This document shows positions 2,414-9,256 of a stretch of DNA of 64,000 nt, one piece after another. Under the pieces are notes generated by a model. That model made no database searches. It was not told where the DNA came from and worked only from the letters and a program-made list of their open reading frames with translations. Every line of letters begins with the position of its first letter. The stretch's first letter is position 1. A program made the position numbers and the translations under genes. Origin of the DNA: an uncultured Ignavibacterium sp. (GTDB lineage Bacteria; Bacteroidota; Ignavibacteria; Ignavibacteriales; Ignavibacteriaceae); the NCBI GenBank assembly GCA_937942875.1, contig CALEBT010000047.1:27134-91133 (forward strand). The letters are read 5' to 3'.

Positions 2414-2967
2414 AAAAAGTAATGCTGATAATACCATTTGTATTCACTTTTCTTTTTGTCACGGGGATATTGGTTTATTTGAATACTATTTATAACAACA
2501 TATTCCATTTCGATTTTTCTCCAAAATCAGAAAATCAGATAGACTCTGTAATGGATTCACTTTTGGTCAAAGATGCAACAAAAACCGATAATACCAAATC
2601 AGAAATTGAATTGGCTTCTAATCAAGAAAAAAAAATTGATACAATCAATATCACTAATAATTCTGATCAATTAAAGCAGTCAATTACTGATTCTAAGAAT
2701 GAGAACTCATCAAATTTTGATGAGCAAAAATCATTACCGAAAAATTTTGTTGAAAAAACAAATAAAGATTCAGCTTACACTGCTTGGTTAAAAAAGACTG
2801 TTAAATTAATTGAAAATTTATCTCCTGCTCAGGCTTCTAAACTATTGAAAAATTATTCCGATAATCAAGCGAGAGATATTATTTACACAATGAAACAGAA
2901 ACAAGCAGCTAAAATCATTTCGTACTTAGAACCAGAGTATGTACACAAATTAACAAGGTTTCAATAA
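2410..2967 (+). CDS. MotE/MgtE N-terminal-like flagellar protein with one N-terminal TM
   Basis: N-terminal TM, linker, then C-terminal LSPAQASKLLKNYSDNQARDIIYTMKQKQAAKIISYLEPEYVHKL, typical of the MgtE_N-like domain; sits between fliJ and fliK. Confidence 0.65.
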   Translation: MKKVMLIIPFVFTFLFVTGILVYLNTIYNNIFHFDFSPKSENQIDSVMDSLLVKDATKTDNTKSEIELASNQEKKIDTINITNNSDQLKQSITDSKNENSSNFDEQKSLPKNFVEKTNKDSAYTAWLKKTVKLIENLSPAQASKLLKNYSDNQARDIIYTMKQKQAAKIISYLEPEYVHKLTRFQ

Positions 2968-5900
2968 TGTTAATCAATACACTTTTTTTGTCAAAACCAT
3001 TGCCTGAATCTGATTATCTGAGTAAATCAGAAAGTTCAGATAAAATGTTTGGATTCCTTTTTTCAGAAATTATGAATGTCGATAAACAATCTGAAAAACT
3101 GAAATTAGTTCCGGAACATATAGGAGGAAATCTTATTGACTATAAAAGTGTTTTCATTAATTACAATTTCGAATCAAATGTTATCATATCGCCCCCAGAG
3201 AACAAAGAAACCAAAGATCCCATTATCTGTCTTTCAAAATTGTTTTTAGAAGAAAACCTTGATAATCAAAAAATAAATGAAGCTGAAAAGATAATCTATT
3301 CTCCACAGCAATTTGTAAGCAGTTTTACCCAGTTAATAAAATCCCTCGTTGAAAACAATCCATTATCTGAAAATGTAGAATTAAAACTTTTCTCAAAGAA
3401 TTTCATCTTATCTCAAAATGTAGATAATAATGTACAGAATATTGAAAAATTCCTCTCTGAAATAATTGAAAATGAATCATCTTTCTCATTGACATTAAGT
3501 GCTTCTGGTAAACAGATATTATTTGAAGTTTTTTCTCAGGTAGTTCCATCAATATTAACTAAAGAAACTTTGGATGTTCATAATACAGATTATATTGAAA
3601 CCGAAATTACTTCTTTGAAAGACAAACCGCTTAATCAAATATTATCTAATAATAACAGCCATATGAATGAGCCTTTATCAGATAGCATATTTGCATCCAC
3701 CGGAGAAAAATTAAACACTGAATCAGAGAAGGAATCTTTATTGCACAAAGATGATCAGATTATATCAGTTAAAGAGGATTCGAGCGTCTTTCGAAATAAA
3801 AAATCAATTGAAGCATTCACTTCTGAAAAAACAAATGGAAATTTAGAAATAGATTGGCAACTGAGAAGTAACTTTAATAAAGTCCATAATACAGAGATTA
3901 CTAATTCTTTATTAGAAGGAAATCAGGAAGAAAAATTAAATAATACAGACTTAAACAAGAGCCTATTTTCAGAAAACTCAGCAATAAAGAATAACGATGA
4001 AAAAAACTCATTTAATATTTTACCTTCCGTCAACAAAAATGGTCAGAGATCCACTATTGAACTAATTGATAACTCACAGAAGCAACCAAATTCATTATTA
4101 AATGTCACAACAAAGAATGAAGGTTTAATTTCAAATAATTCTTCTGAAAATCCTCAAATAAAAATTATTATTCAAAGCGATAACCAGAATCAAGTTTCAT
4201 CAAATACTAATGTTAATTCTGAAACAATATCAAAGATTTCGGCAATTCTTGAAGAAAATAAAGGACAAAAGCAGTCCGTTTTGAGTGCAAAAATAACAAC
4301 TAACTCACAGTCTCCACAGAATAAAAATAATGGCGTTAATAGTGAGCAATTCTTTCAGGATAATCTAATTTCTGACAGGCAAGTTCAAAATCTATTTAGG
4401 TCAATTTCATTAAACAAGCAGACTGTTCAAAGGGAATTATCTTCGGTTAATAGTGTAAAATCGCAAATAATCAATGAACAAAGTCCAGCATTAAATCTCA
4501 CAGATGAAAATGTTCAGATAATTACTCAAAATAATTCAGTCAAAAATTTTAATAAGGATTTGTCGGTAAAACTAAATCAATTTCCAGAAAATGAAGTGGA
4601 CTTAAATTCTGAATTAAAGGTATCAAATGGAGTTGTTTCTGAAAAATCGATCTCAGATAACTTAAAAACTATGACACCAACTAATGTTGAAAATCCTGTA
4701 CATAACACTGGTGTAAAAAAGTCTGATAATATTTTAATAAATAGAGAACAAGATTATTCGATAAATACAAATCCTTCATTTCGTGAGAATAATAAAGTAT
4801 TTACAAAAGATTTTACAGACATTAAAATCGATATTCCAGATGACGAAAGCCAAATCATTAATAACAATTCAATTAATAAAAATATTGTATTAAATACTTC
4901 ATCAAGCAGCACAGAAATTAGAAAAGAAATAGCTAATGAACCTTCGATTGGGAAAGTTACCTTTGCAGAGGGAAAGAATCCTGAATTTTTCAGTTTTAAT
5001 AAACAAGGGAAAGACATAAAAGTAGTTGATAGTAAGGAAATTAATTCTAATAACTCAATTGAAACACTTGAAAACGAAGAAGTTTCAAAAATCAACTTAG
5101 ATGTTCGAGATTCTCAGAACGACGTTAAGTCTGAACAAAAAACTAATAATGAATTAGCTTCATTAAGTAATAAATCAGAAAATCAAAAGTCAAATTCGAT
5201 TTCAGCAAACAACAATAAGCAAACTGTTTCAAACAATTCACTTGAAACATTTAATAATGAAGGAAAATCGGCAAGTAGCTTAAGTGTCAAAGAATCTCAG
5301 AAACATTCTGAATCAGAATTGAAATTAGTAAATAATAATAGCCTGAAAGCTGAAGTAAATTCCGCTGAAGAAAAGGTATCTTCCAATACTGTTCATCAAG
5401 TTCAAAATTCATTCATAAAAAAATCTAAAAATATTTCATCATCTGAACCAGTATTAGATTCACATCAAAGTAACTCTTCAGATAAATCAAATGAAAACAG
5501 AGAAATCAAACCATACAGTTTAACAAATTTACAAGAAGAAGTATCAGAAAGATCGGATGTCAATCTTAAAAAAATTCAAAAAGATTATTCTTCACCGAAT
5601 AATGTTTTTAGAGTTGTGATTGAAAAACCTGCAAAGGGTATTGTGGGAAGAAGCTCTGAATTTGTACAGGAAGAAAAGTCAAATACAGAAAATCCAAAAT
5701 TTAATTCTGAAGTTCCAAAGGAAGTTAAAATAAATGAAGAAATTGTAAGGACTTCAGATAAAGAAACTCCTCACATTGAAACTAAAACTGATTTTAATAG
5801 TCATCAGGAAGATAGCACGAAGAACACAAACCAGAACATTACAAATATGACGTATAAGGAAAGTAATTTCTCTAAACATTATGAAGAATCTTCTATTGAT

Positions 5901-6440
5901 TTTAGAAATATTATCCCTGGATTTGAAAAGAAAGTTTCACCTGCATCTTCAAGAAATATTAATGAGGTGCATATAAATTCAAACAAATTTGATTTTAACA
6001 AATTTTTTGAATCCAAATCGTTAGAAAACTTTGTCCGAATAATTAATGAAAATAATCTGAATTATCGTGCAGAATTAAACAATTTAGGTAGGAATAGTAA
6101 CTTTATCGAACTGAAACTTTATCCGGAGGAATTGGGTCGAGTTAAAATTCTGATTGATAACTCTGATAATATAGTTTCCGCCAAAATTGAAGTTCAATCG
6201 GAACAAGCTAAGAATATTATAATTTCAAATTTACCTCAGTTAAAAGAGTCTCTTAAACAAGAGGGATTGAATAGCCAGAATATTAATGTTTACCTTGGAA
6301 CCGAAGATCAGAAAGGTCAGCATAGTGCTAATCAAAAACGCCAGAACGGAAATAGCAAAGTAATGTATGATGCTGAAGAAAAATCTGAAGAAGTTAAAAT
6401 TAAAAATTTAGGTTATAACACAATAGAATATTTAGCATAG
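2967..6440 (+). CDS. fliK: Flagellar hook-length control protein FliK, very long
   Basis: C-terminal FliK domain (FIELKLYPEELGRVKILIDNSDNIVSAKIEVQSEQAKNIIISNLPQLKESLKQEGLNSQNINVYL); position before flgD; long Ser/Asn-rich N-terminus. Confidence 0.88.
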   Translation: MLINTLFLSKPLPESDYLSKSESSDKMFGFLFSEIMNVDKQSEKLKLVPEHIGGNLIDYKSVFINYNFESNVIISPPENKETKDPIICLSKLFLEENLDNQKINEAEKIIYSPQQFVSSFTQLIKSLVENNPLSENVELKLFSKNFILSQNVDNNVQNIEKFLSEIIENESSFSLTLSASGKQILFEVFSQVVPSILTKETLDVHNTDYIETEITSLKDKPLNQILSNNNSHMNEPLSDSIFASTGEKLNTESEKESLLHKDDQIISVKEDSSVFRNKKSIEAFTSEKTNGNLEIDWQLRSNFNKVHNTEITNSLLEGNQEEKLNNTDLNKSLFSENSAIKNNDEKNSFNILPSVNKNGQRSTIELIDNSQKQPNSLLNVTTKNEGLISNNSSENPQIKIIIQSDNQNQVSSNTNVNSETISKISAILEENKGQKQSVLSAKITTNSQSPQNKNNGVNSEQFFQDNLISDRQVQNLFRSISLNKQTVQRELSSVNSVKSQIINEQSPALNLTDENVQIITQNNSVKNFNKDLSVKLNQFPENEVDLNSELKVSNGVVSEKSISDNLKTMTPTNVENPVHNTGVKKSDNILINREQDYSINTNPSFRENNKVFTKDFTDIKIDIPDDESQIINNNSINKNIVLNTSSSSTEIRKEIANEPSIGKVTFAEGKNPEFFSFNKQGKDIKVVDSKEINSNNSIETLENEEVSKINLDVRDSQNDVKSEQKTNNELASLSNKSENQKSNSISANNNKQTVSNNSLETFNNEGKSASSLSVKESQKHSESELKLVNNNSLKAEVNSAEEKVSSNTVHQVQNSFIKKSKNISSSEPVLDSHQSNSSDKSNENREIKPYSLTNLQEEVSERSDVNLKKIQKDYSSPNNVFRVVIEKPAKGIVGRSSEFVQEEKSNTENPKFNSEVPKEVKINEEIVRTSDKETPHIETKTDFNSHQEDSTKNTNQNITNMTYKESNFSKHYEESSIDFRNIIPGFEKKVSPASSRNINEVHINSNKFDFNKFFESKSLENFVRIINENNLNYRAELNNLGRNSNFIELKLYPEELGRVKILIDNSDNIVSAKIEVQSEQAKNIIISNLPQLKESLKQEGLNSQNINVYLGTEDQKGQHSANQKRQNGNSKVMYDAEEKSEEVKIKNLGYNTIEYLA

Positions 6441-7136: not shown

Positions 7137-7508
7137 ATGTATGAGATAAATGGAATACAAGTACCCTTCCTTCCGATAAATAACTTTGAGGGAAATCGGG
7201 TACATAACCGTGGATCTTCTGAAAGCTTTGAGTCGATCTTTCAACAAGAGCTTGAAAGAGTTAAGTTTTCTCAGCACGCCGTTAGAAGACTTGAAGAGAG
7301 ACAAATCAAACTAAGTGATGAAGACTTGACGAAAATTAACGAAGCAGTTGAAAAAGCTGAACAAAAAGGCTCACGTGATTCTTTAGTAATGATGAACTCA
7401 ACAGCATTTATCGTTAATATCCCAAATCGAACAATAATTACTGCTTTGCCAATTGAAAGCAGCAGTGAAAATGTGTTCACAAATATTGATTCTGTAGTTT
7501 TTGCTTAA
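7137..7508 (+). CDS. Flagellar operon protein (TIGR02530-like)
   Basis: KFSQHAVRRLEERQIKLSDEDLTKINEAVEKAEQKGSRDSLVMMNSTAFIVNIPNRTIITAL; located between flgD and flgE as in other flagellar operons. Confidence 0.75.
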   Translation: MYEINGIQVPFLPINNFEGNRVHNRGSSESFESIFQQELERVKFSQHAVRRLEERQIKLSDEDLTKINEAVEKAEQKGSRDSLVMMNSTAFIVNIPNRTIITALPIESSSENVFTNIDSVVFA

Positions 7509-7527
7509 TAAGTAAATAATTAACAAT

Positions 7528-7578
7528 GGGCGGGACCTTTCGAGGACGCCCGGTCCGACCGACTGACTGAAGTCGGAC
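7528..7578 (+). other. GC-rich structured element in the flgD-operon/flgE intergenic region
   Basis: GGGCG(7528-7532)/CGCCC(7547-7551) stem; GTCCGAC(7553-7559)/GTCGGAC(7572-7578) perfect 7-bp stem; locally very GC-rich in an AT-rich region. Confidence 0.55.
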
Positions 7579-7621
7579 ATAAATTTAACAAATAATAGTA
7601 ATTAAATTTTAGGAGGTCATT

Positions 7622-9256
7622 ATGCCACTATTAAATTCACTCTTTTCGGGTGTCTCTGGTCTTAGAAATCATCAATCAATGATGGATGTTATAAGCAATA
7701 ACATTTCTAACGTTAATACAATTGGTTATAAAAGTTCAAGAGTCACTTTCAGCGATACTTTCAACAGAATTATCAGATACGGTTCAAATCCAACTGAAAC
7801 TTCCGGCGGAATAAATACTTTTCAAGTTGGCTTGGGAATGAGAATAAATACTGTTGACAGAACGTGGAATCAGGGAACTTTTGAAGGTACCGGAATTACC
7901 ACAGATTTAGCTTTGCAAGGTCCTGGATTATTTATTCTTGAAAACAATGGTGAAAGATATTTCACCAGAGCTGGTGCATTTATATTTGATGCTGATGGCA
8001 GATTGGTTAATTCACAAAACGGTGCTATTGTTCAGGGTAAAGTTGCAAATAAAGAAGGAATTATTCCTCCGGGAAACTATCTTGAAGATATTCAGATTGA
8101 TTCTTATATGAGATTGCCCGCTGTAGCTACTTCAAGAATTTCCTGGGGTGGTAACCTGAATAGTGCTTCGTCATTAACTCGTTCTGAAAATTATCTGCAG
8201 ACTGGAAATATCAACTCAGCTCTTGCAGTTGGTGAATCTGTAACCGATCAAAACATTATTTATGATGAAAATGGAAATAAATATACTTTCTCAGTTAAAT
8301 ACACTAAGACTGCTGATAATACTTACGATATGGAATATCAATTAAAAGATTCTGATGGTAATACAGTCGTTGGTCCGACAACTCTACCAGTTGTATTCGA
8401 TCCCGGAACAGGTCAGCTATTAACAGTAAATGGTAATCCACCAGCAGCAATTCAAATTCAGGATGTTAGTTTAGGCATCAATTTCAATTTTGATATGACT
8501 CAGATTACTCAAAATAATTCAACTTCTACAATTGCATCAACAGTTGACTCAAACAGACAACCAACAATTATCACTGGTTCTGTTACTATATTTGATTCAT
8601 TAGGTAATGCTCATATTTTAACTTTAAAGTACACAAAAGTTGATAACAATAGCTGGAAATGGACTGCTTCAGTTCCTGATAGTGCTGGAGGTTTAAGTGG
8701 AAATACAGGAAGCATTTCCTTTAACCCGGATGGTTCTGTGAATACAATTATTCCAAATCCTCCAGTATTGACATTTACTCCAAATGGTGGTGCAAGTGCA
8801 CAAAACATAATCTTAAATTTCGGTGAAAACTTCAGTGGAATTACGCAGACTTCAGCTAATTCAGTTTTGTCTGCATTGAGTCAGGATGGTTCGGCAGCAG
8901 CAACTTTGTCCAATCTTAGTATTGATAAATATGGTTTCATTGTTGGAGTATTCAGCAATGGTCAATCAAGAAAATTAGCACAAATAATGGTTGCAACTTT
9001 CCCAAATCTTAATGGTCTGTTAAGTGTTGGAGAAAATTTATACTCATTGAGTGCAAATACCGGTGATCCTTTAATTGGTGAGCCTGGTGAATCAACAGGA
9101 ACTACTATTCAATCTGGTGCTTTGGAACAATCTAATGTCGATTTGTCGGAAGAATTCACAAGGATGATAGTATCACAACGTGGATTCCAGGCAAGCGCAA
9201 GAGTAGTTACTGTATCTGATAATTTATTGCAGGAAATCACAAACCTTGTAAGATAA
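7622..9256 (+). CDS. flgE: Flagellar hook protein FlgE
   Basis: N-terminus LFSGVSGLRNHQSMMDVISNNISNVNTIGYKSSRVTF and C-terminus SNVDLSEEFTRMIVSQRGFQASARVVTVSDNLLQEI; RBS aggagg upstream. Confidence 0.96.
   Translation: MPLLNSLFSGVSGLRNHQSMMDVISNNISNVNTIGYKSSRVTFSDTFNRIIRYGSNPTETSGGINTFQVGLGMRINTVDRTWNQGTFEGTGITTDLALQGPGLFILENNGERYFTRAGAFIFDADGRLVNSQNGAIVQGKVANKEGIIPPGNYLEDIQIDSYMRLPAVATSRISWGGNLNSASSLTRSENYLQTGNINSALAVGESVTDQNIIYDENGNKYTFSVKYTKTADNTYDMEYQLKDSDGNTVVGPTTLPVVFDPGTGQLLTVNGNPPAAIQIQDVSLGINFNFDMTQITQNNSTSTIASTVDSNRQPTIITGSVTIFDSLGNAHILTLKYTKVDNNSWKWTASVPDSAGGLSGNTGSISFNPDGSVNTIIPNPPVLTFTPNGGASAQNIILNFGENFSGITQTSANSVLSALSQDGSAAATLSNLSIDKYGFIVGVFSNGQSRKLAQIMVATFPNLNGLLSVGENLYSLSANTGDPLIGEPGESTGTTIQSGALEQSNVDLSEEFTRMIVSQRGFQASARVVTVSDNLLQEITNLVR

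Follow-up and report, generated by a model that had tools for sequence, protein, structure and literature searches.

The window, that is the whole stretch of 64,000 nucleotides analysed here, carries a flagellar gene cluster in which profile matches identified FlgD upstream, and FliL and FliM downstream, of a two-hairpin element (HP1 and HP2) placed before the hook protein gene flgE. The features are collected in Table 1. The GC content was 0.64 across positions 7525-7574, against about 0.2-0.4 in the flanks. This GC-rich island had been described in the initial annotation, and all the inverted repeats named there were found in place. It was also correct that no T-tract follows and that about 43 nt lead to the flgE start: HP2 ends at 7578, 43 nt before the ATG at 7622, and what comes after it is ATAAATTTAAC, which is not the U-run that follows the GC-rich hairpin of an intrinsic terminator. 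The folding energy of a 71-nt segment of this region was -22.2 kcal/mol, compared with -15.6 kcal/mol for dinucleotide shuffles (z -2.4), and 2 out of 200 shuffles folded equally well. By itself the fold energy is modest evidence; the decisive evidence against chance is conservation together with covariation.

Table 1 Features of the flgE leader region in the window
Feature	Position	Strand	Evidence
Whole element, member of the two-hairpin RNA family	7527-7580	+	R1 70.2 bits, R2 63 bits (covariance models)
Hairpin HP1	7528-7551	+	At least 97% of cells paired in each stem, compensatory changes
HP1 outer stem, GGGCG / CGCCC	7528-7532 / 7547-7551	+	97.8-99.7% of cells paired
HP1 inner stem, CCT / AGG	7536-7538 / 7543-7545	+	97-99% of cells paired
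GGA, 5' side of the HP1 internal loop, facing A7546	7533-7535	+	Near-invariant in aligned copies
Hairpin HP2, stem GTCCGAC (7553-7559) / GTCGGAC (7572-7578)	7553-7578	+	Compensatory changes in all eight aligned pair columns
HP2 loop, GACTGACTGA (family consensus GAMYGACNGA)	7561-7570	+	Near-invariant positions
GGACC and GGTCC	7533-7537 and 7552-7556	+	Read from sequence
CCGACT / AGTCGG	7559-7564 / 7571-7576	+	Read from sequence
Shine-Dalgarno sequence of flgE, AGGAGGTC	7611-7618	+	Read from sequence
flgE, hook protein, gene led by the element	7622-9256	+	PF07559, PF06429, PF00460 and NCBIfam FlgE models
TIGR02530 (flg_new) flagellar protein gene	7137-7508	+	TIGR02530 profile, 113.6 bits

The element was single-copy in its own genome (a draft of 2.02 Mb, 71% complete) and in the 64-kb window, where it was the sole match of both covariance models, R1 and R2. 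When the 71-nt segment was searched as DNA against 59 relatives, a match just before flgE was obtained in about 30 genomes, belonging to the same genus, family and order as the window. Loci were also fetched by FlgE protein and the 150 nt upstream of flgE were read. The element was present in essentially all correctly oriented Ignavibacteria flgE loci and, unexpectedly, upstream of flgE in Thermovorax, Fervidicola and one Tepidanaerobacteraceae genome; it was not found in the alphaproteobacterial flgE loci examined. In the window's phylum 396 genomes were sampled; R1 had matches in 38 of them, usually a single copy at flgE, and two genomes of this phylum displayed a further copy before flagellin. 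In the Thermovorax phylum, which contains Clostridia, R1 matched 179 of 399 sampled genomes, and R2, the better model, 111 of 150. Matches in Proteobacteria were 0/299 genomes in a search with strict filters and no positive control. The family spans Ignavibacteria, other Bacteroidota and the Clostridia-containing phylum.

The conserved fold consists of two adjacent hairpins, HP1 with the pattern GRGCN-GGA-CCU...AGG-R-NGCYC and HP2 with a variable stem and the loop GAMYGACNGA. In a MAFFT alignment of 62 distinct copies, 97% of the cells were paired and double changes occurred at 11 pairs, with 122 double-change cells versus 30 after shuffling; in slid controls the pairing fell to 27-47%. The RNAalifold consensus was HP1 plus HP2, minus the outermost HP2 pair. 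For a further set, drawn largely from other taxa and holding 100 copies of which 98 are distinct, the count was 380 double-change cells versus 103 when shuffled, in a model-fitted alignment that is biased towards the model. G.U pairs outnumbered A.C mismatches in both sets (47 vs 4 in the first and 82 vs 36 in the second), which argues that selection acts on the RNA and not on a DNA palindrome. The GG of the HP1 internal loop was invariant in 162 aligned copies, the next base being A in 154 and T or C in eight, and the near-invariant positions of the HP2 loop were G, A, G, A, C, G and A.

The perfect GTCCGAC/GTCGGAC hairpin pointed out in the initial annotation is HP2, and compensatory changes were found in each of its eight aligned pair columns. 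The other pairings proposed there fared differently. The H-type pseudoknot GGACC/GGTCC showed 0 double changes and was 76.1% paired in the 62-sequence alignment, the same as after shuffling (76.2%), with 40 of the 62 sequences unpaired at one pair, and the CCGACT/AGTCGG alternative was 61% paired and not conserved. The idea of two competing folds is therefore lost for the pairs as proposed, but it may hold with a different competitor, the GGACCU arm with the Shine-Dalgarno (SD) sequence of flgE. Some copies carry additions to the common fold. An additional hairpin was observed between HP1 and HP2 from L093:2897 onward, and the HP1 apex of loci L179, L180 and L183 bears long extensions. In the clostridial loci L108-L111 the element is preceded by GGTGCC and followed by GGCACC; these could form a third helix enclosing both hairpins, which is not evident in Ignavibacteria.

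Beyond the seed set, 113 copies were collected, part of them flgE copies from genomes already in that set; two were cut by contig ends, leaving 111 readable. Among these, 86 lie before flgE, 22 before flgG, two before flagellin and one before another ORF, so that in 110 of the 111 the gene that follows on the strand of the element is flgE, flgG or flagellin. Nine flagellar genes that had been automatically labelled 'other' were reassigned by their N-termini (seven flgG and two flgE). The median distance from the upstream stop codon to the element was 2 nt, against 21 nt in Ignavibacteria, and about 31 nt separated the element from the start codon. The conserved leader has the same strand as the led gene and sits downstream of the preceding stop codon, ahead of the SD sequence of the led gene. 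Compensatory changes, and a fixed position and strand before related genes, are the general marks of a structured cis-regulatory RNA, and both were observed. The element is securely a member of a conserved structured RNA family under selection. The cis-regulatory reading of the initial annotation is strongly supported, as the element is kept upstream of flgE with strong covariation and always on the strand of the gene.

The sole copy without a recognisable flagellar gene downstream was L171:2512-2566 (- strand, genome G375); the ORF that follows it resembles a secreted protein of Bacteroidota, with an odd extension at the N-terminus. Copies L169:1905-1961 and L170:2147-2200 lie directly before flagellin in two Ignavibacteriales genomes, each of which has a second, stronger copy elsewhere (in G049 before flgE). 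The weaker copy at L104:199-260 (33 bits) is followed, after about 80 nt, by a fliK-like ORF (341-1792), which suggests that genes for hook-length control are led by the family too. In the window, the fliK position (2967-6440) is occupied by a 1157-aa Ser/Asn/Lys-rich ORF with no NCBIfam match, which has the C-terminal tail LGYNTIEYLA, similar to the tail LGYNTIELVF in the L104 ORF.

In the window, GAGGTC (7613-7618) of the flgE SD is complementary to GACCTT (7534-7539) of HP1, with one G.U pair. The SD-sequestered fold was computed at -23.5 kcal/mol and the native-constrained fold at -22.6 kcal/mol; being about 1 kcal/mol apart, they are nearly equal. With kinship ignored, 86 of 95 element-led genes had a pyrimidine right after GGAGGT, versus 15 of 50 other genes of the same loci. 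Among the control genes of the Thermovorax-phylum loci the commonest form was GGAGGTG, which has a longer match to 16S rRNA. GGTC in the SD accompanied the arm CCTC in 31 of 44 copies versus 4 of 55 with other arms (kinship again ignored). Of 156 leaders, only 22 had substantial computed SD pairing, with an expectation of at least 3 pairs. Copies before flgG have both hairpins and lack the SD complementarity. SD sequestration was therefore rejected as a universal mechanism, and the general function must reside in the two conserved loops.

In order to relate the RNA to the flagellar gene content, 150 Thermovorax-phylum genomes were compared, with TIGR02530 present in 114, FlhA in 127 and the element in 111. 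Within the 127 FlhA-positive genomes, the RNA was found in 108 of the 111 with TIGR02530 and in none of the 16 without it, the latter scanned for the RNA with strict filters only (Fisher p 1.2e-17, kinship ignored). The three TIGR02530-positive exceptions have diverged copies at the expected place, with 22.6-37.4 bits in an unfiltered scan. TIGR02530 was not found in any of the 14 control genomes, four of them with FlhA. The co-occurrence may come from both simply belonging to one operon type, but this fails for the flgG and flagellin copies because they lie away from the TIGR02530 gene. Co-occurrence of the RNA with one protein family points to a protein partner.

A literature search retrieved no paper mentioning TIGR02530. 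PF12611 was matched by all 42 aligned members of the family, and DUF4258 (PF14076) weakly by 31 of the 42, with a best E of 0.002, below the Pfam cutoff. In the window protein the DUF4258 match covers residues 44-61, where S45, H47, A48 and R51 are invariant. AlphaFold models (mean pLDDT 80 and 73) displayed three helices followed by three or four strands. With these models Foldseek gave no PDB match at E<=0.001; the PDB matches were all at E>=0.2, some of them to nucleases or toxins of the BECR type, and they included a ParDE complex, a CdiA toxin and the domain of a sequence-specific ribonuclease (3ao9). The viral matches included DUF4258 proteins, one at E 0.03, and nothing significant was found against PDB sequences. 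DUF4258 belongs to the RelE/ParE BECR superfamily (PMC11980606). The weak, recurrent DUF4258 matches constitute the likeness to that superfamily; its context there is toxin-antitoxin, whereas TIGR02530 is found in a flagellar operon. The likeness of TIGR02530 to the DUF4258/RelE-BECR fold is a lead, not an identification.

From these comparisons we infer that the element controls the translation of the gene that it leads. The best reading, to which we give even chances, is a switch in the leaders of genes for axial flagellar proteins, namely hook flgE, distal rod flgG and occasionally flagellin, that would act on translation and is possibly bound by TIGR02530. With HP1 folded, GGACCU would be sequestered in the hairpin and the ribosome site would be accessible. 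With HP1 opened, GACCU(C/U) would pair with the SD GAGGU(C/U) and the gene would be shut, a step limited to the flgE copies. The balance would be set by a trans factor reading GGA in the HP1 internal loop and GAMYGACNGA in the HP2 loop, as binding of such a factor would most simply explain the general role of the conserved loops. The best candidate is the TIGR02530 protein, encoded just upstream, because it co-occurs with the RNA and possibly has a RelE/BECR-like, RNA-handling fold. A ribosome ending the upstream gene might be another input, since at the short distance from the stop codon given above it could reach HP1. A more specific proposal, which we hold only tentatively, is a ribonucleoprotein switch dedicated to flagellar assembly and conserved in Bacteroidota and Clostridia-type bacteria. 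In it TIGR02530 would be a domesticated RelE/BECR-fold protein that specifically binds, or cleaves, the two-hairpin RNA where it leads flgE, flgG, flagellin or at times fliK, thereby coupling segment synthesis to assembly.

The hairpins could alternatively serve RNA processing or stability, by marking a cleavage site or by protecting the 5' end newly formed behind the stop codon of TIGR02530 or flgF; the mRNA segments of flgE and flgG would then be enriched over the rest of the operon. The position right behind the upstream stop and before rod, hook and filament genes fits this, as does the possible relation of TIGR02530 to RelE-type RNases. We consider it unlikely, however, as plain stability hairpins do not need loops that are near-invariant across phyla, and the SD complementarity of the flgE copies would be left unexplained. 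A small-molecule riboswitch, with for example a signalling nucleotide as ligand acting on flagellar translation, would account for the compact shape, the near-invariant loops, the coherent set of led genes and the SD-linked alternative fold of some leaders. Yet the element is about 52 nt long with two simple hairpins and no conserved multi-helix junction, no Rfam riboswitch matched it, and the co-occurrence with TIGR02530 favours a protein partner, which makes a riboswitch distinctly improbable.

Control of the CsrA type (CsrA/FliW) through the GGA of HP1, as in the flagellin leaders of Bacillus and Campylobacter, is suggested by the fact that most copies carry GGA near the SD, and CsrA binds GGA in flagellar leaders (PMC4894983). 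CsrA leaders present it in apical hairpin loops near the SD, but here it stands in an internal loop, 8 of 162 copies have T or C in place of its A, and it is absent from the HP2 loop consensus; such control is thus very unlikely. The palindromic, GC-rich nature of the element within an AT-rich background might hint at a DNA-level element (an operator or recombination site) or at the REP-like repeat considered in the initial annotation, but this can be practically discarded given the excess of G.U over A.C, the strand-specific position, an upstream stop that mostly lies too close to the element for a promoter to fit, the single copy in the 71%-complete draft of the host, and extra copies in other genomes that precede other flagellar genes.

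The adjustment of rod, hook and filament protein synthesis to the assembly state is well studied in Salmonella, Bacillus and Campylobacter, and we know of no assembly-coupling mechanism that uses this two-hairpin RNA. The conservation of the RNA in two phyla, the genes that it leads and its co-occurrence with TIGR02530 suggest an undescribed control of flagellum building. This co-occurrence provides a concrete hypothesis for an unstudied flagellar protein family, and a leader RNA found in two phyla provides one for post-transcriptional control in many flagellated bacteria. An incomplete literature search found no description of the two-hairpin RNA, an earlier one under another name being possible. 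When 4227 Rfam families were compared with the window and with loci L104, L107, L108, L168 and L190 (up to E 10), none reached its gathering score over the element; SNORD52, CrcZ and similar weak matches at E<10 were taken as chance. The two-hairpin RNA family is securely new to Rfam, and its association with the led genes is clear.

The Termite-flg motif occurs in the 5' UTRs of flagellar operons. Both Termite-flg (RF01729) and flg-Rhizobiales (RF01736) have been tabulated as candidate structured RNAs (PMC2864571), and they share with the element this status and a flagellar name. The Termite-flg model did not match the element at E<=10, and this motif was tabulated for the termite hindgut only, whereas the element family spans Bacteroidota and the Clostridia-containing phylum. 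Similarly, flg-Rhizobiales gave no model match and was tabulated for Rhizobiales only; under strict filters the element family had no match in 299 Proteobacteria. In Caulobacter, FlbT is a flagellar protein that acts on a flagellin mRNA leader and couples synthesis to assembly. This is the kind of action proposed here for TIGR02530, although FlbT is alphaproteobacterial and, to our knowledge, has no relation to TIGR02530. The closest type of mechanism is the CsrA-FliW control of flagellin leaders at hag and flaA, where a protein-controlled stem-loop leader also lies near the SD of an axial flagellar gene (PMC4894983); the two differ in recognition sequences, in the candidate protein partner and in the genes led, which are mainly flgE and flgG for the element.
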